A stretch of DNA of 45,198 nucleotides from a virus: positions 1 through 45,198 of the IMG/VR virus record IMGVR_UViG_3300047562_001269; one strand, 5' to 3'. Below, in pieces: positions 2,995 through 43,800 of this stretch (position 1 is the first letter of the stretch; each line of letters opens with the position of its first letter). Position numbers and translations under genes: made by a program. The notes beneath the pieces were generated by a model, which was not told where the DNA came from, searched no databases, and saw nothing but the letters and a program-made list of their open reading frames with translations.

Positions 2995-3482
2995 TAAAAC
3001 CCAAAACTAAAATATGGTTTCTTAACGGTGACTTAGTTAGGGTTATTCATACTAGCAGGGCCGCTGGAATTATAACCTTATACAATAAAACAAAAGATGA
3101 AATGATGACGACAACAATTGTCGAATTCAAAAAGAAAAGAAAGAAAGCGTTTACAGTAAAAGAAACTGCTCAATTACTTAATTGCCATGTAAAACATATT
3201 CCAAGATTAGTAAAAAAAGGCATCATTCCAGAACCTATAGGAGAGTTGCCTGGAGGAAAAAGAGCGTTTCACTACTTGTCATATTACTCAGAAGATACTA
3301 TAATGGAGGCTAGGAGAGCAATGTCCATGATTCATCAGGGTCAGCCAAGAAAGGATGGCCTCATTACAAATAATAAAACTCCTACAGAACAGGAGTTGCG
3401 TTATGCCATGGGCGATGGTATACTCCTATATACAAAAGACGAGAACGGCAACTTCATACCGATATTCTCTGAAACTATCTAG
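2940..3482 (+). CDS. MerR-like helix-turn-helix DNA-binding protein
   Basis: 180 residues. Residues ~30-65 look like a small beta domain (IWFLNGDLVRVIH); residues ~72-110 hold a winged HTH of MerR/excisionase type (FTVKETAQLLNCHVKHIPRLVKKGIIP). Similar proteins precede replication genes in large actinophages, so a role in controlling or initiating replication gene expression is likely. The ATG lies inside the zinc-ribbon gene; a 55-base overlap is long but the frame is well conserved in character. Confidence 0.65.
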   Translation: MASKNGADESGNLNLKPVIKPKTKIWFLNGDLVRVIHTSRAAGIITLYNKTKDEMMTTTIVEFKKKRKKAFTVKETAQLLNCHVKHIPRLVKKGIIPEPIGELPGGKRAFHYLSYYSEDTIMEARRAMSMIHQGQPRKDGLITNNKTPTEQELRYAMGDGILLYTKDENGNFIPIFSETI

Positions 3483-3496
3483 AGAAAGGTTATATT

Positions 3497-3697
3497 ATGG
3501 AACCTACTAAGGTTCAGTGGTCGATTGGCTACACGCTCAACACTGGAAACTTTCAATCTCTACGACTTGATTGTCAGGTAGAGGATTTTGTGCGAGATGG
3601 TGAGTCTACTAAGGCAGCATCTGATCGTGTCTATGCCTTTGTCGAAGAGCAACTTATAGAAAAGTTAAAGGAAGCAAAGGAAGAACTAGATGGCTGA
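3497..3697 (+). CDS. Conserved small phage protein, unknown
   Basis: 66 residues with a Shine-Dalgarno AAAGG 7-8 bases before ATG. An N-terminal beta hairpin (QWSIGYTLNTGNFQSLRLD) leads into a charged C-terminal helix (EEQLIEKLKEAKEEL). It overlaps the next gene by eight bases and lies two genes upstream of the helicase, so a replication accessory role is plausible but unproven. Confidence 0.55.
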   Translation: MEPTKVQWSIGYTLNTGNFQSLRLDCQVEDFVRDGESTKAASDRVYAFVEEQLIEKLKEAKEELDG

Positions 3698-3998
3698 TCG
3701 TAAAGATCGGTTTGCCATTCTAAGTAGATACGAAAAGCATTGCAAGATGAGTGGGCTTTCAAACCCAAATCTTAATAAGTATAACGAGCAGTGGGCAGCA
3801 GATGCATTGCTAGAATCATTTCCTGTGGGAGAAATTTATGATGCAATGTCATACTATTTTAGTATTAATCCTAGCCCAACATGGAAAGGATTTGCCAACA
3901 ACCTAGATCGACTGATACAATCTAAGGCGGCAAAAGAAGAAGATGATAGATTGCGTGCTGAAAGGCGTGCTAAGGCTAAGGAGTGGCTGTCAGGGTGA
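3690..3998 (+). CDS. Possible helicase loader / replication accessory
   Basis: 102 residues, nearly all helical, with a very charged C-terminus (EEDDRLRAERRAKAKEW). It sits directly upstream of the DnaB-like helicase with a GTGA overlap. Small helical proteins in that slot often load the helicase in phages; the sequence alone gives no signature, so this is inference from position. Confidence 0.45.
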   Translation: MADRKDRFAILSRYEKHCKMSGLSNPNLNKYNEQWAADALLESFPVGEIYDAMSYYFSINPSPTWKGFANNLDRLIQSKAAKEEDDRLRAERRAKAKEWLSG

Positions 3999-5206
3999 AT
4001 TTAGAAGACAAGGTTTTATCGGCGGTACTTAAAGATAGTCAAGTTCATGTTTTGCTTCAAGCAAACGCAGGACTTCTTTTTAAGACACATTCTGATATAT
4101 GGGAATTTATAAGAAACTATTATGAAAAGAATCAGTCAGTTCCTCCAGTAAAAATAGTAAAAGAGAATTTTTCTGATTTTGAATATGTTCAAGATATAGG
4201 ATCTACTAAGCATCATCTTGATGAACTCAGGGCTGACTATCTCAATGATGGTTTAAAGATGATGCTGCGTTCTGCTGCACAAGAACTTCAGGAGGGCAGG
4301 AATGCAGACGCCCTGAATACTCTTATCAATGAGACAACAAATCTAAAGAAGGTAACAGCAGATATCCGCGATCTTGACGTTACAGACATTGATGATGCTG
4401 TATCATATTTCCAAAAGATGAAGGAGATGCAGGAGGCAGGCACACATGGAATATATACTGGCCTTGCTGGGTTTGATAACTATCTTCCTGCTGGCATTAC
4501 TCCTGGGCAACTTGGGGTACTGTTGGCTTATCCAGCAATTGGAAAATCGTGGATGGCTCTCTACCTCGCGGTACAAGCGTGGAAAAATGGAAAGTCGCCG
4601 CTAATTGTTTCCCTGGAAATGACAGAGGAAGAAGTTAGAAATCGTGTGTTTACTGTTATCGGTCAAGGCATTTGGAGCCACCGAAAACTTTCATCTGGGC
4701 AAGTAGAGATTGATATGTTTCAGAAGTGGGCCACAAAAGAGTTTACTAATAAGCCACCCATTCATATCATTTCCAATGATGGGGTTGGCGAGGTATCTCC
4801 AAGTGTATTACGAGGAAAGATTGATCAGTATAAGCCAGATATTGTATTTGTAGACTATCTCAACCTTATGACTAGCAATCAGCGAACAGACAATGAGGTT
4901 GTTAAGATGAAGAATCTCAGTCGTGAACTAAAGTTGTTGGCTATTTCTGAACAGATTCCTATTGTTGCTATTTCATCTGCCACACCAGATGACGTAACAG
5001 ACATGAATAGTGTTCCAACACTTGGTCAAACATCATGGTCACGACAGATAGCATATGATGCTGATTGGCTTCTAGCCCTTGGTCGTGCCCCTAATAGCGA
5101 TGTTCTTGAGGCGGTATTTAGAAAGAATCGCAACGGATATCTTGGAGAGTTTATGGTTCAAGTAGACTTCGATAGTGGAAGGTTTTTGTATAAGGATTTT
5201 GAGTAA
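3995..5206 (+). CDS. DnaB-like replicative DNA helicase
   Basis: A RecA-fold hexameric helicase that unwinds the fork. The start chosen is GTG 3995 (GTGA overlap, AAGGAG about 12 bases upstream), giving 403 residues; GTG 3983 is possible but has no spacing for a ribosome site. The N-terminal domain begins NLEDKVLSAVL, as DnaB does. Walker A is AYPAIGKSW near residue 175 (first Gly of the loop replaced by Ala), Walker B is DIVFVDYLNL near 285, and an Arg-rich C-terminal strand follows (FRKNRNG). It is next to primase, as usual. Confidence 0.88.
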   Translation: MNLEDKVLSAVLKDSQVHVLLQANAGLLFKTHSDIWEFIRNYYEKNQSVPPVKIVKENFSDFEYVQDIGSTKHHLDELRADYLNDGLKMMLRSAAQELQEGRNADALNTLINETTNLKKVTADIRDLDVTDIDDAVSYFQKMKEMQEAGTHGIYTGLAGFDNYLPAGITPGQLGVLLAYPAIGKSWMALYLAVQAWKNGKSPLIVSLEMTEEEVRNRVFTVIGQGIWSHRKLSSGQVEIDMFQKWATKEFTNKPPIHIISNDGVGEVSPSVLRGKIDQYKPDIVFVDYLNLMTSNQRTDNEVVKMKNLSRELKLLAISEQIPIVAISSATPDDVTDMNSVPTLGQTSWSRQIAYDADWLLALGRAPNSDVLEAVFRKNRNGYLGEFMVQVDFDSGRFLYKDFE

Positions 5207-10842: not shown

Positions 10843-11855
10843 GCGATGTAATGAGTGCAGAAGAAGTTCTTGCACAACTTAATCCTAAACTACGCAAGAG
10901 TGTAACAACGGGGACTGGAATCCATATTGAAAAGCAGCCAACACCGTCCTTTGGACTTAATAGAGCCTTAGGAGGAGGATTGCCATATGGTCGCCAGGTA
11001 CTTATCTGGGGATCTAAGTCATCAGCAAAGTCATCGCTATGCCTTCAAATGATTGGTATGGCCCAAAAGGAGGGAAAGGTTTGTGCATGGATAGATGCAG
11101 AAATGTCGTATTCGGAAGATTGGGCCAAGACTCTTGGGGTAGATTCAGAGAATCTTATTTATTCTACGGCACGCACCATAAACGATATGGTAGATGTTGG
11201 TACAGATCTGATGCAGGCTGGAGCAGACATTATTGTTGTTGATAGTATTTCTGCTTTGCTTCCTGCTATTTATTTTGAGAAGGATAGCACAGAACTTAAG
11301 CAACTAGAAAACACCAAGCAGATTGGTGCAGAGGCTAAGGATATGACCAATGCAGTTAAGATGCTTAACTATGCAAATAATCAAACCAAGCCTACTCTGC
11401 TTGTCTTAATTAGTCAGGCTCGCAACAATATTACTGCTATGTATACAAGCCAGCAACCAACGGGGGGCATGGCAACAAAGTTTTACTCCTCTACCATAAT
11501 CAAGTTATTCTCCTCTGAGTCTGATAATCAGGCTATTAAGGGCAAGATCCATGTTGGAGACAAGATTATCGAAGAAAAAGTTGGAAGAAAGGTAAGATGG
11601 GATGTTCAATTCAGCAAGACAAGCCCTGCATTCCAAAGTGGGGAATATGATTTCTATTTCAGGGGAAACGATATTGGGATTGACAGTATCGCTGATTTGG
11701 TTGATACAGCAGAAATTCTTGGATTTATTGAACGAGCAGGAGCGTGGTACACAGTTAATGGAGAACGTTTCCAGGGAAGAGATAAGTTAGTGTTGGGCGT
11801 AAAAGAAGATCTTGATATTCAGGAGTCTCTTATTGAGAAGGTTATGAATGCCTAA
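10839..11855 (+). CDS. RecA-like recombinase
   Basis: 338 residues, an ATP-dependent strand-exchange protein for phage recombination and repair. Walker A is GSKSSAKSS (residues 58-66), the catalytic Glu lies in WIDAEMS near 84-90, and Walker B is DIIVVDSISALLP near 130. A DNA-binding loop region follows (RNNITAMYTSQQPTGG). It is close to the length of bacterial RecA but divergent in the P-loop (SSAK rather than SSGK). ATGA overlap with the MazG-like gene. Confidence 0.88.
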   Translation: MSDVMSAEEVLAQLNPKLRKSVTTGTGIHIEKQPTPSFGLNRALGGGLPYGRQVLIWGSKSSAKSSLCLQMIGMAQKEGKVCAWIDAEMSYSEDWAKTLGVDSENLIYSTARTINDMVDVGTDLMQAGADIIVVDSISALLPAIYFEKDSTELKQLENTKQIGAEAKDMTNAVKMLNYANNQTKPTLLVLISQARNNITAMYTSQQPTGGMATKFYSSTIIKLFSSESDNQAIKGKIHVGDKIIEEKVGRKVRWDVQFSKTSPAFQSGEYDFYFRGNDIGIDSIADLVDTAEILGFIERAGAWYTVNGERFQGRDKLVLGVKEDLDIQESLIEKVMNA

Positions 11856-12003: not shown

Positions 12004-12299
12004 TGAGTGAACGTGGAGAGGCAAAAAGAATTGGGGCACAACTACATAAGAACAGTGGTCGTAATCAGAAAAAGGGTGATGCAACTTACGCAAACTATAT
12101 TGTTGATATAAAAGAATATTCTAAATCTTTTTCTATATCACAAGATGTTTGGGCTAAAGTTGTAACTGATCAAATGAAGGTAGATAAGAATAAATCACCA
12201 GCACTAATATTGGTTTTAGGCGAGGGCAGCCGCAAGACTCGTCTAGCCGTGATAGAATTATCTGAACTAGAAAGGCTAATAGAAAAAGATGGCGCATAA
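12003..12299 (+). CDS. Small protein, possible PD-(D/E)XK-type resolvase fold
   Basis: 98 residues, basic N-terminus (RIGAQLHKNSGRNQKKGDATY) and a DxK-like strand (YIVDIKEY, residues 32-39). The order GD...VDIK is reminiscent of the minimal nuclease motif in archaeal Holliday resolvases and small phage nucleases. It sits between recombinase and exonuclease genes. Without a fold search the assignment is tentative; it could be a DNA-binding protein. Confidence 0.45.
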   Translation: MSERGEAKRIGAQLHKNSGRNQKKGDATYANYIVDIKEYSKSFSISQDVWAKVVTDQMKVDKNKSPALILVLGEGSRKTRLAVIELSELERLIEKDGA

Positions 12300-16454: not shown

Positions 16455-16970
16455 ATGGACACCGACATTGTACTACATCTAGAAGAAGTAAATCGTGTTG
16501 CCTCAGAATATATTAAGGGCAATGACGAATCTGCTATTGCTAAGCAACTTGACATACCTCGTAATAGAGTGGTAAAACTACTCAATGAATGGCGCGGTAT
16601 GGTGGCAAATAATGAAGCCATTCGTGCAAGAGCAAAAGAAGCATTGGCTAGTGCAGACCAACACTACAATCAACTTATCAAAAAGGCCTATGAGGTTATT
16701 GAAGACGCAGACACAACTGCGAACCTAGGCGCAAAAACAAACGCACTTAAACTCATTCTTGATATTGAGAATAAAAGAATGGATATGTTACAAAAGGCTG
16801 GACTTCTCGAAAACAAGGAGTTGGCAGACCAACTTATTGAGCAAGAAAGAAAGCAAGAAATTTTGTTAGGAATTCTTAAAGACGTTGTTGGAAACTGCAA
16901 TCAATGTAAATATGAGGTAGCCAGAAGGCTTGCTGACTATGGTGGCCCAGGCGAGGCAGTAACGGTATGA
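16455..16970 (+). CDS. Terminase small subunit-like / HTH protein
   Basis: 171 residues from ATG 16455 with AAGGAG six bases upstream; the open frame extends to 16365 but lies over the inverted repeat and has no ribosome site. An N-terminal HTH (NDESAIAKQLDIPRNRVVKL, residues 23-42) is followed by long helices, as in small terminases that bind the packaging site. ATGA overlap with the large terminase supports the call. Confidence 0.7.
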   Translation: MDTDIVLHLEEVNRVASEYIKGNDESAIAKQLDIPRNRVVKLLNEWRGMVANNEAIRARAKEALASADQHYNQLIKKAYEVIEDADTTANLGAKTNALKLILDIENKRMDMLQKAGLLENKELADQLIEQERKQEILLGILKDVVGNCNQCKYEVARRLADYGGPGEAVTV

Positions 16971-18760
16971 CAGACTTCGATTTTGGCGATTTTTTAAATG
17001 TATTAGATGATGATCCATTTGAAGAATATCCTGTTGGAGTTGTGGAATTTGTTACGTCCCCAGACTACCTGGGTCAACCAGGACTTTCAGAAATTCAATA
17101 TACGCTAGTTGAAACCATGAGCCAGATCTATCAGCAAAAAGATCTTGAAAGATTTATGGATCATGACAAGGCAGCACAACATTATAAGAAATACACAAAG
17201 AATGAGGTTATTCTGCAATGCGGCAAGGGTAGCGGAAAAGATTTTACATCAACTGTTGGTACTGCATATTTAGTATACAAACTTCTTTGTCTCAAAGATC
17301 CAGCAAGATATTTTGGCAAGCCTGCTGGAGATGCTATTGATCTAATCAACGTTGCTATTAACGCGCAGCAGGCAAAAAACGTTTTTTTCAAGGGCTTTAA
17401 AACAAAAATTGAACATTCTCCATGGTTTGCTGGAAAATATGAATCAAAGGTAGATTCGGTTACATTTGATAAATCTATTACCGTTTATTCTGGTCACTCA
17501 GAAAGAGAAAGCCATGAGGGGTTAAACCTGATGCTTGCCGTTCTTGATGAGATCTCTGGTTTTGCTCAAGAGTCTGTTTCAGGAAATGAAAATGCTAAGA
17601 CTGGTGATGCAATATATAAAGCATTCCGTGGTTCTGTTGACTCACGTTTTCCAGACTACGGAAAGGTGATTCTTCTTTCCTTCCCACGCTATCAAGGTGA
17701 TTTTATTTCTAAAAGATATGATGAAGTCATCGCAGAAAAAGAAACAGTTGTTAGAAATTATGATTTTATTTTAAATCCAGAACTGCCAGAAGACAGCGAT
17801 GGAAATAAATTTAGTGTTGAGTGGGATGAAGATCATATTCTTGCCTATAAAATTCCTGGGGTATTTGCTATTAAAAGGCCAACCTGGGAGGTAAATCCGA
17901 CTAGAAAGATAGAGGATTTTAAGTTAGCGTTTTATACAGACCCAGGTGATGCATTGATGCGCTTTGCCTGTATGCCAAACTTCTCGTCTGACGCATTCTT
18001 CAAGCAAAGAGATAAACTTGAGAGGGCTATGACCCTTAGAAATCCAATAGATAACTTTAAAAGATTTGATCCAGCGTGGGAGCCTAATCCAGAAAAGACA
18101 TATTTTGTTCATGCTGACCTTGCACAAAAGCATGACAAATGTGCCGTTGCAATTAGCCATGTAGAAAAGTGGGTAGATATAAAATCATTCAATGATTACG
18201 AACAAGTTGTTCCATTCGTTGTAGTAGATGCAATTGCGTGGTGGGAGCCCCGTAAAGAAGGTCCAGTAGATTTGAGTGAGGTAAAGAATTGGATTATTCA
18301 TTTAAGAAGAATGGGAATCAATTTAGGACTCGTTACCTTTGACCGTTGGCAGTCATTTGATATCCAACAGGAATTGAAAGCGGTAGGCATAAAGACAGAC
18401 ACATTATCTGTTGCAAAGAAGCACTATGAAGACTTAGCAATGCTAATTTATGAAGAGCGTGTAGCAATGCCACACATTGATTTGTTATTTGAAGAAATGT
18501 CAGAACTTAAAATTGTTTCTGATAAGAAGGTAGATCACCCAAGAAAGAAATCTAAGGACTTGGCAGATGCTATGTGTGGATCAGTTTACAATTCTATTTC
18601 TCATACTCGCAGAGAAAAGAATCAAGAAATAGAAATTCATACCTGGAGTTCTTCATATAAGAAAAGAAATGAAGAGCAACAAAAGATTAAAAATCTTATT
18701 GATCCCCCTCCTGCTCCTAAAGAAGTAGAGGATTTTTTGTCGGGAATGGGAATGATATGA
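16967..18760 (+). CDS. Terminase large subunit
   Basis: 597 residues, the packaging motor. ATPase domain: ILQCGKGSGKD near residue 85 (Walker A, with Gly-Lys-Gly-Ser-Gly-Lys), LMLAVLDEISGF near 188 (Walker B and catalytic Glu). Nuclease domain (RNase H fold): YFVHADLAQKHDKCAVAIS near 380 with the first Asp, GLVTFDRWQS near 450, and DLADAMCG near 540. No intein or frameshift is seen. Portal and capsid genes are not immediately downstream. Confidence 0.92.
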   Translation: MTDFDFGDFLNVLDDDPFEEYPVGVVEFVTSPDYLGQPGLSEIQYTLVETMSQIYQQKDLERFMDHDKAAQHYKKYTKNEVILQCGKGSGKDFTSTVGTAYLVYKLLCLKDPARYFGKPAGDAIDLINVAINAQQAKNVFFKGFKTKIEHSPWFAGKYESKVDSVTFDKSITVYSGHSERESHEGLNLMLAVLDEISGFAQESVSGNENAKTGDAIYKAFRGSVDSRFPDYGKVILLSFPRYQGDFISKRYDEVIAEKETVVRNYDFILNPELPEDSDGNKFSVEWDEDHILAYKIPGVFAIKRPTWEVNPTRKIEDFKLAFYTDPGDALMRFACMPNFSSDAFFKQRDKLERAMTLRNPIDNFKRFDPAWEPNPEKTYFVHADLAQKHDKCAVAISHVEKWVDIKSFNDYEQVVPFVVVDAIAWWEPRKEGPVDLSEVKNWIIHLRRMGINLGLVTFDRWQSFDIQQELKAVGIKTDTLSVAKKHYEDLAMLIYEERVAMPHIDLLFEEMSELKIVSDKKVDHPRKKSKDLADAMCGSVYNSISHTRREKNQEIEIHTWSSSYKKRNEEQQKIKNLIDPPPAPKEVEDFLSGMGMI

Positions 18761-18838: not shown

Positions 18839-19021
18839 ATGACATTGGCGGTAACACTATACATCATTGTTACTCTTGTTTTATTTTCATTAAACATGGT
18901 GGCAAATATTTTTGCACTCGCTTTGGGAGATAAGAAAGAGTTTCCCCTTAGCACCTTTATAGCAACAATTGTGGCTATGGGATTTGTTGTTTGGGGAATA
19001 ACACTGCTAGTTGTAAACTAG
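18839..19021 (+). CDS. Two-helix membrane protein, candidate holin
   Basis: 60 residues with two hydrophobic segments (about residues 3-29 and 38-58) joined by a charged turn (GDKKEF). The size and topology fit a class II holin. It lies between terminase and the endolysin at 19811 and has its own promoter. There is no sequence signature beyond topology, so an anti-holin or another membrane role is possible. Confidence 0.5.
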   Translation: MTLAVTLYIIVTLVLFSLNMVANIFALALGDKKEFPLSTFIATIVAMGFVVWGITLLVVN

Positions 19022-19027: not shown

Positions 19028-19104
19028 GCGCAGCGGCTGGCTAGTGGTCAGAAATAGTCTTATAAACTATTTAGAGCAGGTGGCAGTAACCTGGCTGCGT
19101 ACCA
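19028..19104 (+). tRNA. tRNA-like RNA, candidate tRNA-Ile(UAU), atypical T-loop
   Basis: Folds as a cloverleaf: acceptor GCGCAGC/GCTGCGT (19028-19034 with 19094-19100, one G-U), D-arm CTGG/TCAG with a 7-base loop containing GG, anticodon arm ATAGT/ACTAT with loop CTTATAA (anticodon TAT, 19061-19063), 6-base variable region, T-stem CAGGT/ACCTG, and encoded ACCA. The T-loop is GGCAGTA, not TTCRANY, and position 8 is not U. It would read AUA, a frequent codon in this arm. It could also be a decaying or unusual tRNA. Confidence 0.6.
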
Positions 19105-19125: not shown

Positions 19126-19311
19126 ATGCAAATCATCATTGAGCCTGCTCCAGGTAGCAGATATAACGGAACACTAGTAATAGATGGAGAAGTTGTGGCA
19201 TTTGTTAATGATAAAAGACCAGGGTGCTGTGCAAGATCGTTGATGAATAAGTTATTGCTTGAGTATGGAAAGCCAGAAGAAACAATAACTATTGATATTA
19301 GCGGGTGGTAG
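19126..19311 (+). CDS. Small hypothetical protein
   Basis: 61 residues from a leaderless ATG. Beta-rich N-terminus (LVIDGEVVAFVND) and a CC pair at residues 34-35; no recognised family. Gap of one base to the next gene. Confidence 0.5.
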   Translation: MQIIIEPAPGSRYNGTLVIDGEVVAFVNDKRPGCCARSLMNKLLLEYGKPEETITIDISGW

Positions 19312-27523: not shown

Positions 27524-27594
27524 GCGGCTGTGGTGTAGAGGTAACACAAGACTCTTCCAAAGTCTTATCGCCAGTTCGATTCTGGTCAGCCGCT
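27524..27594 (+). tRNA. tRNA-Gly(UCC)
   Basis: Acceptor GCGGCTG (27524-27530) with CAGCCGC (27587-27593), anticodon loop CTTCCAA (27554-27560, anticodon TCC), T-loop TTCGATT. No encoded CCA. Reads GGA, frequent in this arm. Confidence 0.92.
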
Positions 27595-27653
27595 CGCTTG
27601 GGAAGTTGATGTTTTGACCGTGTGAAAACATAAACAATAATTAAGGAGATAGA

Positions 27654-28196
27654 TTGTTACAGAAAGTTTATGAAAAGTATTCTCAGCCCACCTCAGATTG
27701 GGGTGGAGATAAGGGAACTGGTCACTCATATATTGAGTTATATGAAAAATATATGGAAACAAAACAATCTATTTGTCTTTTAGAAATTGGTGTTCAGTGT
27801 GGCTACTCACTAAAAATGTGGGAAGAATATTTTGCAGATTCTGATATCTATGGTATTGATATTGATTTATCATTTAATAAATTTCCAGAACTTAAAAACC
27901 TTTTTGAATTTGATGCAACTAAAAATAATTTAGTTCCAGATAGTTTTCGTTCGATAGAATTTGATTACATTGTTGATGATGGAAGTCACCGCGTTCAAGA
28001 TCAAATAAAATCTTTTGATATTTTTTATCCACAACTTAAGGTTGGTGGAAAATATTTTATCGAAGATATTGATGGAGATTTGTCCTTGCTTACCATAGCA
28101 AATCACTTGCGTAAAAGAGGAATTTCGTATATCATAGAAGATGTAAGGTATATCAAGGGCAGATTTGATGACATTATGATAGTTGCAAATAAATAA
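27654..28196 (+). CDS. SAM methyltransferase, macrocin-O-methyltransferase-like
   Basis: 180 residues from TTG 27654 with AAGGAG upstream. Motifs ICLLEIGVQCGYSLKMW near residue 41, YGIDIDLSF near 65, FDYIVDDGSHRVQDQIKS near 100 and GGKYFIEDID near 130. This is the TylF/class I group that methylates sugars. Part of the glycan-modification cargo, framed by tRNAs. Confidence 0.72.
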   Translation: MLQKVYEKYSQPTSDWGGDKGTGHSYIELYEKYMETKQSICLLEIGVQCGYSLKMWEEYFADSDIYGIDIDLSFNKFPELKNLFEFDATKNNLVPDSFRSIEFDYIVDDGSHRVQDQIKSFDIFYPQLKVGGKYFIEDIDGDLSLLTIANHLRKRGISYIIEDVRYIKGRFDDIMIVANK

Positions 28197-28202
28197 TACT
28201 TC

Positions 28203-28275
28203 CTGCGTGTGGCGCAACGGATAGCGCAAGTGGTTTCTACCCACTAGGTTGGGGGTTCGAATCCCTCCACGCAGA
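28203..28275 (+). tRNA. tRNA-Arg(UCU)
   Basis: Acceptor CTGCGTG/CACGCAG (28203-28209, 28268-28274), anticodon stem AGTGG/CCACT with loop TTTCTAC (anticodon TCT), T-loop TTCGAAT. Reads AGA, the main Arg codon in the AT-rich arm. Confidence 0.92.
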
Positions 28276-28279
28276 CTAA

Positions 28280-28359
28280 GCGGTATAGTCCCCAAGGTGG
28301 GGAAGCGGTCTGTAAAACCGTCGCCTTTGGCATGGTTGGTTCGATTCCAACATACCGCA
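28280..28359 (+). tRNA. tRNA-Tyr(GUA)
   Basis: Acceptor GCGGTAT/ATACCGC (28280-28286, 28352-28358), anticodon loop CTGTAAA (anticodon GTA at 28312-28314), long variable arm typical of bacterial tRNA-Tyr, T-loop TTCGATT. Four bases after tRNA-Arg. Confidence 0.92.
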
Positions 28360-28362
28360 CAA

Positions 28363-28391
28363 TTGACAACGCAGTCAATCAACGGTATAAT
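28363..28391 (+). promoter_or_regulatory. Perfect sigma-70 promoter
   Basis: TTGACA (28363-28368), 17 bp, TATAAT (28386-28391), exact consensus. It begins four bases after tRNA-Tyr and drives the gene at 28424 through a leader with AAAGGAG. Confidence 0.8.
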
Positions 28392-28423
28392 ATAGCAGTA
28401 AGCACACAAACAAAGGAGATGTT

Positions 28424-28645
28424 ATGGAAACTATGGTTGAAGAGCGTACAGATTTTCTAAAGGCAACAGATCGATGTGATAGGTGTGCAAGTCAGGCTTT
28501 TGTGTGGGTCAATGGAGTAAATGGTGATTTGCAATTCTGCCGTCACCATTTTCTCAAGCACGAAGATGCTATTCGTGCATACGCATTTGAAGTAATTGAT
28601 GAAACATACAAGATTAATGACAGATCTCAGTCAAGTCCTGTATAA
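28424..28645 (+). CDS. DUF7455-like zinc protein
   Basis: 73 residues under a perfect promoter. ATDRCDRCASQAFVWV (residues 14-29) and FCRHHFLKHED (near 46) form the zinc site of the small actinobacterial DUF7455 family, followed by FEVIDETYKIND. Homologues are found in actinobacteria and their phages; the role is unknown, possibly regulation. Its last codons GTA TAA overlap a TATAAT. Confidence 0.7.
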   Translation: METMVEERTDFLKATDRCDRCASQAFVWVNGVNGDLQFCRHHFLKHEDAIRAYAFEVIDETYKINDRSQSSPV

Positions 28646-28646
28646 T
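28617..28646 (+). promoter_or_regulatory. tRNA promoter overlapping stop codon
   Basis: ATGACA (28617-28622), 18 bp, TATAAT (28641-28646); the box contains the TAA stop of the upstream gene. A start near 28653 would lie just before tRNA-Thr. Confidence 0.55.
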
Positions 28647-28656
28647 TTTCAGGCAC

Positions 28657-28728
28657 GCCTCCTTAACTCAGGGGTAGAGTACCGCACTTGTAATGCGGCT
28701 GTCGTCCGTTCGAATCGGACAGGAGGCT
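28657..28728 (+). tRNA. tRNA-Thr(UGU)
   Basis: Acceptor GCCTCCT/AGGAGGC (28657-28663, 28721-28727), anticodon stem CCGCA/TGCGG with loop CTTGTAA (anticodon TGT), T-loop TTCGAAT. Reads ACA. Confidence 0.92.
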
Positions 28729-28733
28729 CGTAA

Positions 28734-28805
28734 TGGCGTGTGGCGCAACGGCAGCGCAAGGCACTGTTAATGCCTGGGTTGTAGGTTCGAATCCTACCAC
28801 GCCAG
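28734..28805 (+). tRNA. tRNA-Asn(GUU)
   Basis: Acceptor TGGCGTG/CACGCCA (28734-28740, 28798-28804), anticodon loop CTGTTAA (anticodon GTT), T-loop TTCGAAT. Five bases after tRNA-Thr. Confidence 0.92.
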
Positions 28806-28821
28806 CAAAGAAAGGAAAGCA

Positions 28822-37446: not shown

Positions 37447-37965
37447 CTATATGCTATATATGTCTATAGGGCCAAGGCAGGTTGGACTTATATCTACCGC
37501 CGCTTGTAATGAATGTCTAATTCTTTTCTCTTGATCCTTCCAATTTTGGGAAGTATGCAAAGAACCCAATGCAATAGGACCACCTGTACCTATAGCACTA
37601 TACTCAAACTCTGCAATGTGCCAATCTTCTGATGATATTTCAAACAATCTTCCATTGACTCCTACGAGCCAATCAGTAGAATTATCTTCTAAATGAGATG
37701 CATTACCATATGTTTCAATAGCATCCTTAATAACGGATACAAAAGTGGTTCGTAATGTTTTTTCTATGTCCTTAGTTGTCTCTGGTAATTTTATAAAATG
37801 AGGCAATTCCCCAATACCCTGGCTGCCTGCATAACCAATTAGATAATCACCATTCCTCCGCACCTTCGGGCGGGTAAGTGGAAGAATACTAGATCCATCT
37901 GATGATCCTCTATCTCCCCCTATATATACACTACCATTATGAGATATTCCAACTATACAGGTCAC
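37447..37965 (-). CDS. HslV/proteasome-like Ntn hydrolase
   Basis: 172 residues from GTG 37965. After Met removal the N-terminus is TCIVGI, giving nucleophile Thr1; the mature chain has IGGDR (Asp17) and TRPKV (Lys33) at exactly the proteasome/HslV catalytic positions, the GYAGS turn (~44-47) and a GTGGPIALGSL motif near 126. It has the size of HslV, with no propeptide. No ATPase partner (HslU, ClpX) is in the window. It is read from a leaderless promoter (37972-38000). Confidence 0.85.
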   Translation of the reverse strand: MTCIVGISHNGSVYIGGDRGSSDGSSILPLTRPKVRRNGDYLIGYAGSQGIGELPHFIKLPETTKDIEKTLRTTFVSVIKDAIETYGNASHLEDNSTDWLVGVNGRLFEISSEDWHIAEFEYSAIGTGGPIALGSLHTSQNWKDQEKRIRHSLQAAVDISPTCLGPIDIYSI

Positions 37966-37971
37966 GGGCCT

Positions 37972-38000
37972 ATTATACTCCTAAATGAAAAAATTGGCAA
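37972..38000 (-). promoter_or_regulatory. Leaderless promoter of the Ntn hydrolase gene
   Basis: On the minus strand: TTGCCA (38000-37995), 17 bp, TATAAT (37977-37972), six bases, GTG 37965. TTCGTAA-type repeats lie just upstream (37987-38080). Confidence 0.7.
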
Positions 38001-38060
38001 ATATTTTTTTGATTTCGTAATGTCAAAAATTGGCGATTTTTTTTCTGCTTTCGTAATGTC
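37987..38060. repeat. Hairpin repeats, copies 3 and 4
   Basis: Two adjacent copies (37987-38024 and 38024-38060) of AAAAATTGGC-N-TTTTT-TGNTTTCGTAATGTC, upstream of the Ntn gene. Copies 1-2 lie at its other end. Confidence 0.7.
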
Positions 38061-38062
38061 TT

Positions 38063-38120
38063 TTCGTAAAGCGTTCGTAAAGTCCTTTATGTCCTTTTTG
38101 TCGTTATTTCCGGCCCGCCC
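38063..38120. repeat. Boundary element A (TTCGTAA...ATTTCCGGCC)
   Basis: Two TTCGTAA words (38063, 38074), TTTATGTCC, and ATTTCCGGCC (38106-38115). Similar to elements B (41909-41962) and C (44991-45044). It lies between the end of one leftward transcript and the next promoter. Confidence 0.65.
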
Positions 38121-38124
38121 CTGC

Positions 38125-38214
38125 CTAAGGTGCTAGACAGGAGGCGACAACCAGGATGAGTCCAATCAAAAAGAATCCAGATAGAAAGGTGGTTAACATA
38201 TCGTCACCCTTCAT
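38125..38214 (-). CDS. Small single-TM peptide
   Basis: 29 residues, start ATG 38214 sharing a base with the upstream TGA. One hydrophobic segment (MLTTFLSGFFLIGLILVVAS) of about 20 residues. The same design recurs at the end of the last leftward unit (45044). Function unknown, maybe a membrane-targeting toxin or lysis regulator. Confidence 0.5.
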   Translation of the reverse strand: MKGDDMLTTFLSGFFLIGLILVVASCLAP

Positions 38215-38543
38215 CAGATCTCAACATTCATTACATCAATCTTTGGTGCATTGGGTGATGCTTCCCAGCATTGTCCAAGATGCTCATATGATGCGTCAGG
38301 GTCAATAGAGATAATCGCACAGAATGTTGTCCATGCTTCCTCAATAAACTTCTCTGACTCCATGCCCTTCTCAGTTGCAGGGATAATAGCAAGACCCTGT
38401 GAAATCATGTGGGACAGTGGCAACGCAATGTCAGCCCATGCAAAGAACTCTGACCAATTCTCGTCTGCCTCTGCATCTGCGCGGTAATACAACCACAGAT
38501 CACCTAGGATATTGCACTTGTTAGAAAAGGGTGTCTTGGACAT
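38214..38543 (-). CDS. Conserved actinophage protein
   Basis: 109 residues. CNILGDLWLYYRADAEADEN at residues 10-29 and ADIALPLSHMISQGL (near 38) match a widespread small actinophage family (ADLW...LPLA type) of unknown function. Overlaps its upstream neighbour by 23 bases. Confidence 0.65.
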   Translation of the reverse strand: MSKTPFSNKCNILGDLWLYYRADAEADENWSEFFAWADIALPLSHMISQGLAIIPATEKGMESEKFIEEAWTTFCAIISIDPDASYEHLGQCWEASPNAPKIDVMNVEI

Positions 38544-38754
38544 ACTGTTGATCCTCCTTGATACGATTACGTTCCCATTCTACATGATTGGCGAAGTCTT
38601 GGATACGGTCTAGCACTACCTCAGGATATGCGTTTACTACTGTGTAGAACGCAAGATACATAAGGTCATGATCCCTCACCCTACCATCGCTGAAAATGTC
38701 AAGCAACTTTAGAGCGTGCTTCTCAAAGCGGCTGCGGTCACCTGTGTTCATCAT
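38521..38754 (-). CDS. Small conserved phage protein
   Basis: 77 residues from ATG 38754 or 38751 behind GGAGG. Helical (FEKHALKLLDIFSDGRVRDH). First gene of a unit with its own promoter (38762-38790). Unknown. Confidence 0.55.
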   Translation of the reverse strand: MMNTGDRSRFEKHALKLLDIFSDGRVRDHDLMYLAFYTVVNAYPEVVLDRIQDFANHVEWERNRIKEDQQYVQDTLF

Positions 38755-38761
38755 GCCTCCA

Positions 38762-38790
38762 ATCATACACTAGGGGTCTGACAATAGCAA
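38762..38790 (-). promoter_or_regulatory. Sigma-70 promoter
   Basis: TTGCTA (38790-38785), 17 bp, TATGAT (38767-38762). It abuts a terminator hairpin (38791-38820), so one unit ends where the next begins. Confidence 0.65.
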
Positions 38791-38820
38791 GGGGGAGAGG
38801 TCGGTGTTGACCCCTCCCCC
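38791..38820 (-). terminator. GC-rich terminator hairpin
   Basis: GGGGGAG-a-GGTC / GACC-c-CTCCCCC with a 6-base loop (one mismatch), 14 bases after the stop of the 54-residue gene. The T-run is weak. Confidence 0.65.
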
Positions 38821-38833
38821 AAGACTATTGGAA

Positions 38834-38998
38834 TTAGCGAGAGGTAACCTTCTGGCCCTTACGCAGTGCAGAGAGGGAAATAGTATCCACGAATCGTCCC
38901 TGCTCACGGATCACAACACGATCCGACTTGCCATACCGCGTGTCCCACTGCTCAAGGTAAGCGTAGGTCTTGCGGGGCTTGCTGTTCTTGCTTGCCAT
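38834..38998 (-). CDS. Small basic protein
   Basis: 54 residues with AAGGAG before ATG 38998. Begins KNSKPRKTYAYLEQWDTRYG and is basic. It has a consensus promoter of its own (39036-39065) and a terminator after it, i.e. a monocistronic unit. Unknown function. Confidence 0.6.
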   Translation of the reverse strand: MASKNSKPRKTYAYLEQWDTRYGKSDRVVIREQGRFVDTISLSALRKGQKVTSR

Positions 38999-39035
38999 TT
39001 ATTTCTCCTTAGTGTAGGTAATTACTTACTGGGAT

Positions 39036-39065
39036 ATTATACTAGTACCTTGGCGAACTTGTCAA
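39036..39065 (-). promoter_or_regulatory. Consensus sigma-70 promoter
   Basis: TTGACA (39065-39060), 18 bp, TATAAT (39041-39036), inside the end of the upstream gene; AAGGAG leader before ATG 38998. Confidence 0.75.
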
Positions 39066-39414
39066 GGAATTGCTGGAAAGTCATTGTGAATTTAGGATTG
39101 TAGAAGTCTACTCCAATACCCCAGTCGTGGGGGTACAGGGTGACAGTCTTAGCAGACCAGTCCACGATGGGAATAGAATGCTCGTTGTCTCCAACACGGG
39201 TAGAGATACCCCAACTGTATTCCTGGCTCCATTCCTCGCCAATCATTGTTGAGATAGCAATTCTTGTTGCATATGATTCATCATTCCAACGAGGGTTCGC
39301 TGCAATGATAGCATCTGCTAGGCGAGCCATCATCTGATGCCCTGCCCAATGTCCGTACAGATAGATAATGTCACCATCTGCCTGACGGAATCCGAAGTTT
39401 GCACGATCACCCAT
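39037..39414 (-). CDS. Conserved phage protein (MGDRANFGF type)
   Basis: 125 residues from ATG 39414 (GGAGG upstream). GDRANFGFRQADGDIIYLYG at the N-terminus, WAGHQMMARLADAI near 23, and RVGDNEHSIPIVDW (near 78). A phage protein family of unknown function seen in actinophages. TAATG overlap with its upstream neighbour. Confidence 0.65.
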   Translation of the reverse strand: MGDRANFGFRQADGDIIYLYGHWAGHQMMARLADAIIAANPRWNDESYATRIAISTMIGEEWSQEYSWGISTRVGDNEHSIPIVDWSAKTVTLYPHDWGIGVDFYNPKFTMTFQQFLDKFAKVLV

Positions 39415-39587
39415 TACTCTGCCTCCCAAACATCGACATTTTCCTGTACCTCGCCACCTGTGGTGGTAGCGTTGTCCCAATTATACTTACCTGACCAGAA
39501 ATTGTCAAGTGCTGCTTCCTTAGATTCTGCCTCTACCTCCATGCGATACCAATCTTCGTTGGTCCATTCGATAACATACTTAGGCAT
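39414..39587 (-). CDS. Small protein
   Basis: 57 residues from ATG 39587 (GGAGGGGAG upstream). Begins MPKYVIEWTNEDWYRMEVEA. Its start resembles the 46-residue neighbour (MPKHLVTI), suggesting a small paralogous pair. Unknown. Confidence 0.55.
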   Translation of the reverse strand: MPKYVIEWTNEDWYRMEVEAESKEAALDNFWSGKYNWDNATTTGGEVQENVDVWEAE

Positions 39588-39720
39588 TCCACTCCCCTCC
39601 TGGAATAACGCCAACGTCTGGCAGACCAATAAGTTCGATTAGATAATCAGGATTGGTGATAACAAACTCGACATACACCTCACCATCTTCATTAGTTATG
39701 GTAACTAGATGCTTAGGCAT
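39580..39720 (-). CDS. Small protein, paralogue-like of neighbour
   Basis: 46 residues, starts MPKHLVTITNEDGEVYVEFV. It overlaps both neighbours by 1-8 bases. Same MPK start and beta layout as the product at 39587. Confidence 0.5.
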   Translation of the reverse strand: MPKHLVTITNEDGEVYVEFVITNPDYLIELIGLPDVGVIPGGEWNA

Positions 39721-39875
39721 TAGAAAATCACCGCCAAGAATAAGATAGCCAATATAATTAGTGATAGTGTGCCAACCATTCCGAAACCTACCTCGGCCTT
39801 GTTGGTCATACGCATACTAGGATCACGGGTCATGCGTCCTGTATGCCTGTGCATGTCATATGCCTTGCCCCACAT
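39720..39875 (-). CDS. Small membrane-anchored protein
   Basis: 51 residues with GGGAGG before ATG 39875. Polar basic N-terminus, then one C-terminal TM segment (MVGTLSLIILAILFLAVIF). Tail-anchored design. Unknown. Confidence 0.55.
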   Translation of the reverse strand: MWGKAYDMHRHTGRMTRDPSMRMTNKAEVGFGMVGTLSLIILAILFLAVIF

Positions 39876-40153
39876 TACAACCTCCCATGAATGTCGCGGA
39901 ATCCTAGATCATACACGAAACGCTCTGTGCTATTCCATGCAGACTCGCCATAGAACAACTGTGACTTCTTGACACCGTTGATGGTGTAGGTCACACGATA
40001 GAAGTCGGGGAAGGGATATCCATTCTCTACCTTGACTGCAATGGAACGATCACACCAATCAACAGCAGAGTTCTCATAGAGATTATCCCAACGAGATACC
40101 TGCCCAACCTTGGGCCGCTTGCTAGGGCGGTATGTCCAATAGTCTGTCGTCAT
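39875..40153 (-). CDS. Hypothetical protein
   Basis: 92 residues, basic N-terminus (YRPSKRPKVGQVSRWD) and aromatic centre (FYRVTYTINGVKKSQLF). TAATG overlap with the next gene. No family recognised. Confidence 0.5.
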   Translation of the reverse strand: MTTDYWTYRPSKRPKVGQVSRWDNLYENSAVDWCDRSIAVKVENGYPFPDFYRVTYTINGVKKSQLFYGESAWNSTERFVYDLGFRDIHGRL

Positions 40154-40353
40154 GATACTGCGCCTCCCAATGCTAGGTTATACTCATACCAATCTTGTGT
40201 GTAGAGCACGAAGTCTACACCATCAGACCGCAAGGTGTCAAGGTATGCATCAAGGTCTTTTTGCTCAATGCACCTAATGAAATTATCTTGAGAATCATAT
40301 ACATCCCAATAGAACGGCTGTGCTCCCCAATCTATTTCATATAGTTTGATCAC
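40150..40353 (-). CDS. Hypothetical protein
   Basis: 67 residues from GTG 40353 (GTGA overlap; GGAG upstream). Residues YEIDWGAQPFYWDVYDSQDN at the N-terminus. Unknown. Confidence 0.5.
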   Translation of the reverse strand: MIKLYEIDWGAQPFYWDVYDSQDNFIRCIEQKDLDAYLDTLRSDGVDFVLYTQDWYEYNLALGGAVS

Positions 40354-40490
40354 GGTTGCTCCAACCCTAGAATCCACCAATTGAGATCAGCGTTGTCGTG
40401 TGCCCATAATTCTCCATCCTCAAACTCATCGAATGGGCCATAGAAATCTATACTGTCAAACATCTCACCAACGGCAACGATGTATTTCAC
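40350..40490 (-). CDS. Small acidic protein
   Basis: 46 residues from GTG 40490 (GTGA overlap with the upstream gene's stop). Acidic and aromatic (FDSIDFYGPFDEFEDG). Unknown; part of a chain of coupled genes. Confidence 0.5.
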   Translation of the reverse strand: MKYIVAVGEMFDSIDFYGPFDEFEDGELWAHDNADLNWWILGLEQP

Positions 40491-40690
40491 AGTTCATTTC
40501 CATTCTCATCTTGGAAGATAAGGCCAGACAGACCACCAAAGTCCTCGTCTACCCATTCCTCAATGTATTCTAGAACATCATCAACAGACCTAGGCTCCCA
40601 ATCTCCATGGCTTAGGTTCATGTCCTGAATAATCGACGGTACATGATAAGTAACAGTCTTGATAACGTTGATTCTCTCAGGCAGACTCAT
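40487..40690 (-). CDS. Hypothetical protein
   Basis: 67 residues from ATG 40690 (GGAGG upstream). Acidic C-terminus (YIEEWVDEDFGGLSG). Unknown. Confidence 0.5.
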   Translation of the reverse strand: MSLPERINVIKTVTYHVPSIIQDMNLSHGDWEPRSVDDVLEYIEEWVDEDFGGLSGLIFQDENGNEL

Positions 40691-40751
40691 TGTAGTACCT
40701 CCACTTATCCTCGGAATAGTCAAAGTCAAATAGTTCTAGTTGATCATCCAT
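40677..40751 (-). CDS. Tiny acidic ORF
   Basis: 24 residues (GGAG seven bases upstream of ATG 40751), overlapping both neighbours; acidic/aromatic (ELFDFDYSEDKWRYYN). Plausible only by its place in the chain. Confidence 0.4.
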   Translation of the reverse strand: MDDQLELFDFDYSEDKWRYYNESA

Positions 40752-40989
40752 CGGCATTCTCCAATTGTGGCACGGGAATAACATCAACCATAGATTGTAG
40801 CGTGCGAAGCAACTGCATGTCAAGTTCCTCCTCCGCACCCTCTGGAACCTTCCATCCATAGAAGTGACGCTCATACTGCTCAGTATCCCAAAGGTTACCG
40901 TCAGCAAAGTAGGCGAAGGTATCAGATTCGACAAACCACTTCATAGAAGTGTCATCATATCCAATAACGAAATGGTACTGCTTGCTCAT
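40744..40989 (-). CDS. Hypothetical protein
   Basis: 81 residues from ATG 40989 (GGGAGG upstream). Begins KQYHFVIGYDDTSMKWFVES. Unknown. Confidence 0.5.
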   Translation of the reverse strand: MSKQYHFVIGYDDTSMKWFVESDTFAYFADGNLWDTEQYERHFYGWKVPEGAEEELDMQLLRTLQSMVDVIPVPQLENADG

Positions 40990-41246
40990 GCTGCTTCCTC
41001 CCAATAGAGTGCGTCCCATAGACGCAGTTCTTCCATCATTGAGTATCCTGTAATTGTGGCACCGTTAGGCAATGTCCACTCTTGATCTAATGCCTCCTGG
41101 TTGTCGATGAAGTATTCGTCAATGTCTGGATCATACCATGCCCCCGCCTCTGCACGCAACTTGTCAAAGAATGATTGACAGGATAGTTGGATATCGGCGG
41201 GTATGGGTGGATAGAAATTGCAGGTTAGGTGATAAGTAATATCCAC
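40986..41246 (-). CDS. Hypothetical protein
   Basis: 86 residues from GTG 41246, sharing one base with the upstream stop. Beta N-terminus (TYHLTCNFYPPIPADIQLS) and aromatic C-terminus (LRLWDALYWEEA). Unknown. Confidence 0.5.
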   Translation of the reverse strand: MDITYHLTCNFYPPIPADIQLSCQSFFDKLRAEAGAWYDPDIDEYFIDNQEALDQEWTLPNGATITGYSMMEELRLWDALYWEEAA

Positions 41247-41380
41247 TATGCTACCTCAATACTTCCATAGTCCCAAACAGATTCCATGAGTAACTGTTCT
41301 GCATTTGATACTGCATCACCCTCGCTGTCTGCCTCAACAAACATGGTGATGTTGCTAACATGGACTTCATAGGTGCTCAC
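41246..41380 (-). CDS. Small protein
   Basis: 44 residues from GTG 41380 (GTGA overlap). Beta strand YEVHVSNITMFVEADSEGDA then helix. Too small for the usual size cut-off; supported by coupling on both sides. Confidence 0.5.
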   Translation of the reverse strand: MSTYEVHVSNITMFVEADSEGDAVSNAEQLLMESVWDYGSIEVA

Positions 41381-41814
41381 ATTTCCTCCACTTGGATACC
41401 CGCAGTTTCATAGGACTGAACCTCAACATCTGACGAATAGGTATTGGTGATCTCAACCTCAAGATCGCCATGCAGATCGTCAATGTCATATCCTACTGGA
41501 ACAGTTACCTCTACGTCAATATCAGCGGTAACGCGAACGGTAACAGTACGGATAAGATTACGACCAAAGAATGATGCAAGTTCCTCTGCATAGTCATTCT
41601 CAATATCACCATCCTCAACAAACTGCATAAGGCGTTCGATCATAGAGTCAATGCGTGCTTCCATGCTTGTAACACGACTACGCTCCATGTTGATAGTACC
41701 GCGAAGGCTCTCAATAGTGGTATCCTTTTCATCACGCTCTTCGTGCAATTGCTCAATCTCCTCCATCAACGACTGAATCATCGCGGGGGATGAAGTATTG
41801 ACATATGTATCCAT
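41377..41814 (-). CDS. Coiled-coil protein, head of the small-gene operon
   Basis: 145 residues. N-terminal coiled coil (MEEIEQLHEERDEKDTTIES, residues ~17-36, continuing to ~70) and a C-terminal beta domain (TVRVTADIDVEVTVPVGYD). GAAAGG upstream of ATG. It has its own promoter (41844-41872) and leads thirteen coupled genes down to 39037. Confidence 0.55.
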   Translation of the reverse strand: MDTYVNTSSPAMIQSLMEEIEQLHEERDEKDTTIESLRGTINMERSRVTSMEARIDSMIERLMQFVEDGDIENDYAEELASFFGRNLIRTVTVRVTADIDVEVTVPVGYDIDDLHGDLEVEITNTYSSDVEVQSYETAGIQVEEM

Positions 41815-41843
41815 GACATACCTTTCATCTAGTAGGTAGTCTG

Positions 41844-41872
41844 ATCCTATAACGGATAGAGGTAAATGTCAA
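41844..41872 (-). promoter_or_regulatory. Sigma-70 promoter of the small-gene operon
   Basis: TTGACA (41872-41867), 17 bp, TAGGAT (41849-41844). Boundary element B lies 36 bp upstream. Confidence 0.7.
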
Positions 41873-41908
41873 GCAAAAAATGGGGAATCCTGGCGAATTT
41901 CTTAATGG

Positions 41909-41962
41909 TTCGTAAATGTTTATTTATATATAAATGTCTTATTTGATATGATTTCCGGCCCG
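41909..41962. repeat. Boundary element B
   Basis: TTCGTAAATG, AAATGTC and ATTTCCGGCCCG, matching elements A and C. It starts right after the tRNA-Asp end on the leftward strand and lies upstream of the operon promoter. Confidence 0.65.
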
Positions 41963-41968
41963 TTTTGG

Positions 41969-42041
41969 CGCACCTGATGGGATTCGAACCCACGACCTCC
42001 ACCGTGACAGGGTGGCGAGCACTCCGCTGCTCTACAGGTGC
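41969..42041 (-). tRNA. tRNA-Asp(GUC)
   Basis: Minus-strand cloverleaf: acceptor GCACCTG/CAGGTGC, anticodon stem CCACC/GGTGG with loop CTGTCAC (anticodon GTC), T-loop TTCGAAT. It ends the DUF932 transcription unit. Confidence 0.9.
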
Positions 42042-42077
42042 ATGTGGGCAGTTTATTGTCATGCCCAGGACTAGCGA

Positions 42078-43073
42078 TTACGCGAACGCAACCTCTTTGA
42101 CAACATGCAACATGCTGTTCTTTGCGGAAGTGGTCGAAGGATCGAAACCACTAGCAGCAGCAAGGACAGACTCTGCATTACCACCGCGAGGATTGCGATA
42201 CCAATCAAGGCGTTCGGTCAGTGCGTTGTATGCACCCCACGCAGTACCCTTGATGTTCACGCAGGTCTCACCGTTGTAGATGGTGTTGAGAGTGTCGATC
42301 TTGTTCTCCCACTTTGTCATTGCACCCTTGACGTTCTCCTCAGGCTTAGGGTAGATCGTCGTGATGATATCAAAGAACTTCTGATCGTTGATCTCCTTTG
42401 CGATCATCTCAGCAGCGATTTTGTCAAATGCATCAAGGTACTGATTGGCAAGGCCCAACGCCTCACGCGCAGCCTGCACCTTACCCTGCAAAGTCTGGGT
42501 ATGGCGAATACGGAAGGACTGCTTTGCACCCTTGCCCTTGTAGCCAACTGCCATGTTGAGTGTGTTCTGGCAGACAACACGCACAGGGGTAACGCTAGCC
42601 TGAATAGCAAGCGAGCCATCGTGCGAGGTATGCACAAGAAGGTAGTTGTTCACCTTGTCACCACGACCATTGGGATCAAGTTCGGTAGTGCGATCAAGTG
42701 CAAGCGAACCGAACACAACGGTTCCGTTCTTGATAGAGCCAGCAGTCTCCCAACGCCCACCGTCAAGAAGTGCGTCACCGAAGGTAAACAGTTCCTCATT
42801 CTGGAGAACCTTGTAACGCTCGCCCACGACACCCAGAACGTCAGTCTGACCATCGAATGGATTGGTGCGAACAGTCGCAAAGTAATCACGATGCGAACGG
42901 CCTGGAAGGTCTACAGTCTCTAGGCGAACATTCCAACCAGACAGGTGCGCGAGGTCTAACATCTCCTGCGTGCTAACTGCCTCGTCGATGACGGTTCCAA
43001 GGCCATGCCAAGCGGGTTGCCGCAAGGATGCGAAGGAAGCCATGTCGCCGTACTGCTCCAACATATGTGCCAT
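42078..43073 (-). CDS. DUF932 phage/plasmid-like protein (TIGR03299)
   Basis: 331 residues. The family pattern is clear: MASFASLRQPAWHGLGTVID near residue 11, GWNVRLETVDLP near 46, VGERYKVLQNEELFTFGD near 82 and VTPVRVVCQNTLNMA near 161. Found on phages and plasmids; function unknown. GC-rich codon choice sets it apart from the rightward arm. AGGAGAAAC ribosome site. Confidence 0.88.
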   Translation of the reverse strand: MAHMLEQYGDMASFASLRQPAWHGLGTVIDEAVSTQEMLDLAHLSGWNVRLETVDLPGRSHRDYFATVRTNPFDGQTDVLGVVGERYKVLQNEELFTFGDALLDGGRWETAGSIKNGTVVFGSLALDRTTELDPNGRGDKVNNYLLVHTSHDGSLAIQASVTPVRVVCQNTLNMAVGYKGKGAKQSFRIRHTQTLQGKVQAAREALGLANQYLDAFDKIAAEMIAKEINDQKFFDIITTIYPKPEENVKGAMTKWENKIDTLNTIYNGETCVNIKGTAWGAYNALTERLDWYRNPRGGNAESVLAAASGFDPSTTSAKNSMLHVVKEVAFA

Positions 43074-43105
43074 TTTGTTTCTCCTAACTAGTTGTTGATG
43101 TGATA

Positions 43106-43135
43106 ACTATACATCCTAGGTCTGACATTTGTCAA
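43106..43135 (-). promoter_or_regulatory. Sigma-70 promoter of DUF932 unit
   Basis: TTGACA (43135-43130), 18 bp, TATAGT (43111-43106). Confidence 0.7.
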
Positions 43136-43158
43136 TAGCAAAATAGGAAAACTTCGGG

Positions 43159-43172
43159 GTGATCATAATCAC
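43159..43172. promoter_or_regulatory. Palindrome GTGATCATAATCAC, possible operator
   Basis: Inverted repeat GTGAT-CATA-ATCAC, 24 bases upstream of the DUF932 -35 box (leftward). A related site lies at 43786-43800. Confidence 0.4.
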
Positions 43173-43285
43173 ATCGTAAACACTTGACAAAATGGGGGGG
43201 GTGGGGGCCGGAATTTTTGGCAAAGAGAAGCCCCTAGGGGAGCGTTGCGGTGGGTGGGGTACGCTCAACCCTAGGGGGGTAGAAG

Positions 43286-43319
43286 GGAGGTGGCAAATAT
43301 CTACGGATACCCCACCTCC
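43286..43319. repeat. 8-bp inverted repeat hairpin
   Basis: GGAGGTGG (43286-43293) and CCACCTCC (43312-43319), perfect arms, 18-base loop. May be a terminator or RNA fold. Confidence 0.5.
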
Positions 43320-43372
43320 AGAATGTGGAAGCAGTTTCTTGTCATGCTCAGGACTTATGCTATTTGATAGCG

Positions 43373-43785: not shown

Positions 43786-43800
43786 TGTGATTATATCACA
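43786..43800. promoter_or_regulatory. Palindrome TGTGATTATATCACA, possible operator
   Basis: A 15-bp perfect palindrome (6-bp arms, 3-base centre) just after the stop of the next leftward gene. CRP-like in look, but with 5 rather than 6 bases between the TGTGA half-sites. Confidence 0.4.

Follow-up and report, generated by a model that had tools for sequence, protein, structure and literature searches.

A phage tRNA-Ile(UAU) gene from a family without U8, carrying a pair-swapped elbow

The window, the whole stretch of viral DNA analysed here (45,198 nucleotides of a viral record), carries on its plus strand an unusual tRNA gene that lies downstream of the gene for the terminase large subunit and between two small open reading frames (ORFs). 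On the basis of its fold, a cloverleaf scan, family alignments and covariation, we assign it as a tRNA-Ile(UAU) gene with an encoded CCA, belonging to a phage tRNA family marked by its base at position 8 (the G8 family) and, within that family, to a variant with an altered elbow. The locus is organized as follows.

16967–18760, plus strand: terminase large subunit (PHROG terminase); the tRNA slot is just downstream in many relatives, as judged by synteny
18839–19021, plus strand: small hydrophobic ORF (60 aa) that separates the tRNA from the terminase gene and is conserved in contigs L002, L003 and L112 (tblastn)
19028–19104, plus strand: the tRNA-Ile(UAU) gene
19126–19311, plus strand: small ORF of 61 aa just 3' of the tRNA, conserved in L002, L003, L094 and L112 (tblastn)
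27524–28806, plus strand: five ordinary tRNAs, Gly(UCC), Arg(UCU), Tyr(GUA), Thr(UGU) and Asn(GUU) (ARAGORN and Rfam)

The terminase and the DnaE-like polymerase of this phage share roughly 54–55% identity with their counterparts in Streptomyces phages (Stanwilliamsviridae where taxonomy is recorded), and the host is therefore likely actinobacterial. Among the terminase relatives, the slot lying a few hundred bases 3' of the terminase gene likewise holds a tRNA-Ile(UAU), an arrangement conserved across terminases that are 53–80% identical. Two kinds of tRNA fill the slot: those with a canonical core, U8 and a normal T-loop (L002, L005, L006 and L026), and members of the G8 family (L030, L048 and others). 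Elsewhere, the window encodes an IMP dehydrogenase/GMP reductase (PF00478, 31460–32497), and its right arm (37500–45198), unlike the rest of the phage, has a reversed strand bias and a higher GC content (0.44–0.52); this arm carries a DUF932 protein (42078–43073, minus strand) and a tRNA-Asp with an encoded CCA (41966–42041).

The minimum free energy fold of 19028–19104 is a complete cloverleaf (−27.6 kcal/mol, z −1.96) with the general layout of a tRNA, that is, a 7-bp acceptor stem, D, anticodon and T arms, and anticodon and T loops of 7 nt each. A strict scanner, which demands four perfect stems but leaves the T-loop sequence free, picked out this cloverleaf, the five ordinary tRNAs and nothing else from the window; the same scan of 100 dinucleotide-preserving shuffles of the window returned none, which rules out a chance cloverleaf. 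Fold and scan thus bear out, to the exact coordinates, the full cloverleaf with encoded CCA that the initial annotation had proposed from the letters alone, together with its T-loop GGCAGUA and its lack of U8, position 8 being G. That it was also called atypical agrees with the behaviour of standard tools, as ARAGORN does not call it in the window and the Rfam tRNA model (RF00005) matches it neither at the gathering threshold in the window nor at E ≤ 10 in the local stretch. These finders miss it because its core and elbow, which hardly differ among almost all other tRNAs, are rebuilt with other bases: U8–A14, U54–A58, G18–U55 and G53–C61 are all replaced (by G8, C14, G54, G58, A18, G55 and U53–A61), with G19 and C56 retained. 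The sequence features of a tRNA-Ile(UAU) are all present, namely UAU in a 7-nt loop, U33, A37, the discriminator A73 and the CCA end. Its parts, and how they behave across the family, are listed below.

19028–19034, plus strand: 5' strand of the acceptor stem, paired with 19094–19100; 7 of 7 positions are paired in 33 of 33 members, with two-sided changes in all seven pairs
19035–19036, plus strand: G8 G9 in place of U8 A9 (alignments); G8 in 32 of 33 members, the window included, and A8 in L179, the most divergent
19037–19051, plus strand: D-arm CUGGCU-AGU-GGUCAG, up to 6 bp with a triloop (alignments)
19052–19072, plus strand: anticodon arm AAAUAGU-CUUAUAA-ACUAUUU, a perfect 7-nt inverted repeat supported by covariation; the stem spans 5–7 bp, the loop is CUUAUAA, and the anticodon UAU occupies 19061–19063
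19071–19076, plus strand: variable region UUAGAG, family signature YUAGAG (alignment)
19077–19093, plus strand: T-arm CAGGU-GGCAGUA-ACCUG with a 5-bp stem, T-loop at 19082–19088 and closing pair U53–A61; common to L120 and L128 only
19101–19104, plus strand: discriminator A73 and encoded CCA (19102–19104); A-C is invariant in the family

Relatives of this tRNA were met through the terminase gene, and the family was then gathered by pattern scans of viral contigs. It comprises 33 distinct sequences including that of the window (32 others), nearly all from viral contigs, where they either neighbour the terminase gene or form part of phage tRNA arrays, many of them in the company of Met, Leu, Arg, Asn and Asp tRNAs. 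The window shares the defining G8G9, the D-arm CUGG-CURGUNG-UCAG, the CUUAUA loop, YUAGAG and the covarying stems. Across the 33-member alignment, 96.8% of cells are in standard pairs, 20 of the 25 pairs show a two-sided change in at least one member, and the covariation score is 0.631, compared to 0.192 for shuffles and no more than 0.148 if the pairing partner is slid by one to three columns, a control in which covariation is lost. The G8 family is a genuine structured RNA. The loop CUUAUA does not vary among the members found, although invariance there, in the D-arm and in YUAGAG is partly by construction as all three were used in the search patterns; a scan that left the D-arm free recovered mostly the same D-arm.

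This D-arm accounts for the altered core. It forms up to six pairs around an R-G-U triloop (4 to 6 bp can be drawn in the window), its outer pair is C–G across the family and U–A in L179, and C occupies the equivalent of position 14 and G that of position 21. In L179 the D-stem has changed compensatorily with the G-G-U loop unchanged, and in L175, L176 and L180 the inner U–G has become U–A; these changes support the extended D-arm and so assign positions 18 to 20 to the small loop. U8 is missing in the family because its partner A14 does not exist there, and G8, a C14–G21-type pair and the extended D-stem take the place of the U8–A14 core. Judged from the alignments, the absence of U8 is a trait of the whole family and no defect of the copy in the window.

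Family members with a normal T-loop are called tRNA-Ile(tat) by ARAGORN, often within tRNA arrays. None of seven other members reached the Rfam tRNA model; six had no match at all and the seventh, L094, matched only the tRNA-Sec model, weakly (32 bits against a cut-off of 47). The very low covariance score that the initial annotation had named as evidence against a tRNA is thus what the general tRNA model gives, but a model of the family itself scores the window tRNA at 88.7 bits, the window sequence being part of that model. A low-stringency blastn search of 50,697 phage records found no family member in cultured phages, a match in a Lactobacillus phage being a chance one inside a coding gene. 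The GTDB species genomes held one match, on a cyanobacterial-binned contig that is probably phage rather than cellular in origin because it carries a relative of the terminase. Among individual contigs, L175 has two copies of the G8 tRNA-Ile(UAU), at 11505–11581 and 12007–12081, roughly 500 bases apart and each with a tRNA-Arg(UCU) ahead of it, which makes this a duplication of the pair; L179 (103 kb), home of the most divergent member, has at least 36 tRNA matches; and L104 carries, in a phage tRNA array, an ARAGORN tRNA with anticodon UCA (2104–2177) that may be a UGA suppressor or of the Sec type.

The altered elbow is known from only three contigs, the window, L120 and L128, which have in common the GGCAGUA T-loop, the U53–A61 closure and A18 (19043 in the window), whereas the rest of the family has the T-loop UYCRAUY, G53–C61 and G18. 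Set beside what is known of elbow anatomy (PMC7912444, PMC4810234), the swaps come paired: G–C to U–A at 53–61, U and A to G and G at 54 and 58, and G and U to A and G at 18 and 55. C56, its partner G19 and the purine at 57 are kept, and the sole unpaired change is A for a pyrimidine at position 60. We infer from this A18–G55 and G54–G58 contacts, for which the support is one joint change, perhaps a single evolutionary event, and not recurrent covariation. A kissing interaction between the D-loop CUAGUGG and the T-loop GGCAGUA was sought by eye and not found, and two pattern searches for more such elbows gave L120 and L128, the remainder being chance matches without a cloverleaf.

The window tRNA differs from that of L120 by 13 substitutions and from that of L128 by 17, all of them in stems, with none at the 23 unpaired positions and with every pair preserved. 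Of 300,000 random mutation sets per size, none matched that pattern (on average 17–19 of 25 pairs survive), which indicates that the variant is under purifying selection as a functional RNA. The terminases of the carriers are only 55–61% identical; in the terminase tree, the window stands beside L002 in one deep clade, and the other holds L120 and L128. The variant would be either ancestral and then lost or moved between phages, and the tree needs two changes either way. Horizontal transfer is plausible, as turnover of the slot is high (L002 has a canonical tRNA-Ile there, and in L003 none was seen). In L120 (103 kb), where the Rfam tRNA model finds just two other matches, one of them partial, the variant gene is still kept. 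The terminase of L120, with the tRNA on the plus strand, is interrupted in frame within Walker A by roughly 350 residues (about 3349–4406), an insertion (GKG/CNAPYTP...ISAN/SGKDF) that looks like an intein.

Comparison with known tRNAs places the window tRNA closest to phage tRNA-Ile(UAU). Canonical-core forms, such as the annotated tRNA-Ile(tat) of Streptomyces phage Karimac (NC_048724, 76832–76906) and those of L002, L005, L006 and L026, occur in related phages and share its anticodon loop CUUAUAA and role class, the latter four also its post-terminase slot, but have U8, G10–C25, an ordinary D-loop and a UUCAA-type T-loop, none of which is found in the window tRNA. G8 members with a normal T-loop (L102, L112, L094, L030, L048 and others) are closer, with the same G8G9, D-arm, YUAGAG, anticodon loop and A73-C, and in L102, L110 and L112 also the same acceptor stem; they differ in UYCRAUY, G53–C61 and G18 against GGCAGUA, U53–A61 and A18. 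The extended D-stem, the small loop with positions 18 and 19 and the lack of a U8–A14 type core recall tRNA-Sec (SelC). The hallmarks of tRNA-Sec are an 8/5 or 9/4 acceptor domain, a long variable arm and a UCA anticodon, whereas the window tRNA has 7/5 acceptor and T stems, a 6-nt variable region with no long arm, and UAU. The allo-tRNA(UAU) of soil bacteria is likewise atypical, mainly metagenomic and endowed with a UAU anticodon, but has a 12-bp acceptor domain of 8/4 or 9/3 and Ser identity, in contrast to 7/5 and the 6-nt variable region here (PMC7609411). Similarly, tRNA-Pyl is a natural tRNA without the usual D- and T-loop sequences and with a long anticodon stem, and its Desulfitobacterium form even has G8, but its variable region is small, it has a single linker base and it reads UAG (PMC7609411); the window tRNA has two linker bases, keeps G19 and C56, and has UAU.

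AUA makes up 171 of the 566 Ile codons (30%) in the main plus-strand ORFs of the window, in line with the commonness first suggested for it, and other AT-rich codons are served by further tRNAs of the same phage. The usefulness of a tRNA-Ile(UAU), also proposed at the outset, gains support from family membership, synteny with canonical tRNA-Ile(UAU), the tRNA-array context and this codon usage. Taken together, the window element is probably a functional, AUA-decoding phage tRNA-Ile(UAU) with a co-evolved alternative elbow, and we hold this reading with good confidence; supply for the rare AUA codon is the simplest role for it. In such a scenario, the core of a phage tRNA lineage would have been rebuilt by loss of U8–A14 in favour of a C14–G21-type pair and a D-stem growing toward 6 bp, whose small R-G-U loop holds positions 18, 19 and 20. 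The elbow would have been rebuilt too in the window and in two distant relatives, by paired steps (G53–C61 to U53–A61, U54/A58 to G54/G58 and G18/U55 to A18/G55) that kept G19–C56, its one Watson–Crick pair. We further infer that the tRNA is transcribed after the terminase genes, ends in CCA at its 3' end, is charged by the host IleRS via the anticodon loop and A73, and would decode AUA in this AT-rich phage. Given the low general tRNA score, steps that depend on the elbow (RNase P, TruB, TrmA, EF-Tu and the ribosomal L1 stalk) might be poor.

Other readings have to be weighed against a translating tRNA. The lost T-loop consensus and the misses by ARAGORN and Rfam would suit a decaying pseudogene left in a tRNA slot, but decay would also disrupt the stems, and here the T-loop, the D-loop and the other unpaired bases are the same in two more phages while the stems are compensated; we reject this reading as scarcely credible. 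Nearly as improbable is a cis-acting cloverleaf in the terminase mRNA, a regulatory or RNase P processing site that merely resembles a tRNA: its position just 3' of the terminase is constant in many genomes, but other members sit in tRNA arrays, always with a UAU anticodon, A73 and a following C. A mimic or decoy, whose tRNA-like fold would draw a host factor that cleaves or modifies tRNAs in defence and serve no use in translation, is unlikely, if less so. Phage tRNAs do counter tRNA-targeting defences (PMC10264068, PMC11555353), the altered elbow is the part that many partners of tRNA read, and an unchanged anticodon loop would fit bait for an anticodon nuclease. Yet the gene retains A73 and the encoded CCA, its stems are intact and its anticodon is a coding one, the closest relatives are ordinary-looking tRNA-Ile in tRNA arrays, and nothing ties the gene specifically to any nuclease; the inactive mimic raised in the initial annotation has found no positive evidence.

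A narrower form of the preferred reading, which we put forward only tentatively, holds that this AUA-decoding tRNA, with its U8–A14-less core, A18–G55, G54–G58 and U53–A61 contacts and retained G19–C56, was selected for evading elbow-reading host enzymes, for example those of modification, or tRNA-targeting nucleases. Evasion of tRNA-targeting defences by phage tRNAs has precedent (PMC10264068, PMC11555353), the changed positions 54, 55, 58 and 18 define the elbow and its modification sites (PMC7912444, PMC4810234), and the changes are fixed in phages with widely diverged terminases. However, nothing ties the gene to a particular host or defence system, and neutral compensated drift followed by horizontal spread would yield the same pattern.

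The favoured reading, a working tRNA with a co-evolved elbow, bears on tRNA biology beyond this phage. Few structures in biology are as conserved as the tRNA elbow, which RNase P, modification enzymes and the ribosome all read. With a natural lineage whose elbow is pair-swapped, beside sisters that keep the usual one, the comparison needed to learn which bases of the elbow translation requires already exists. As standard models miss members of this family, current counts of tRNAs and of AUA decoding in phage metagenomes are too low.
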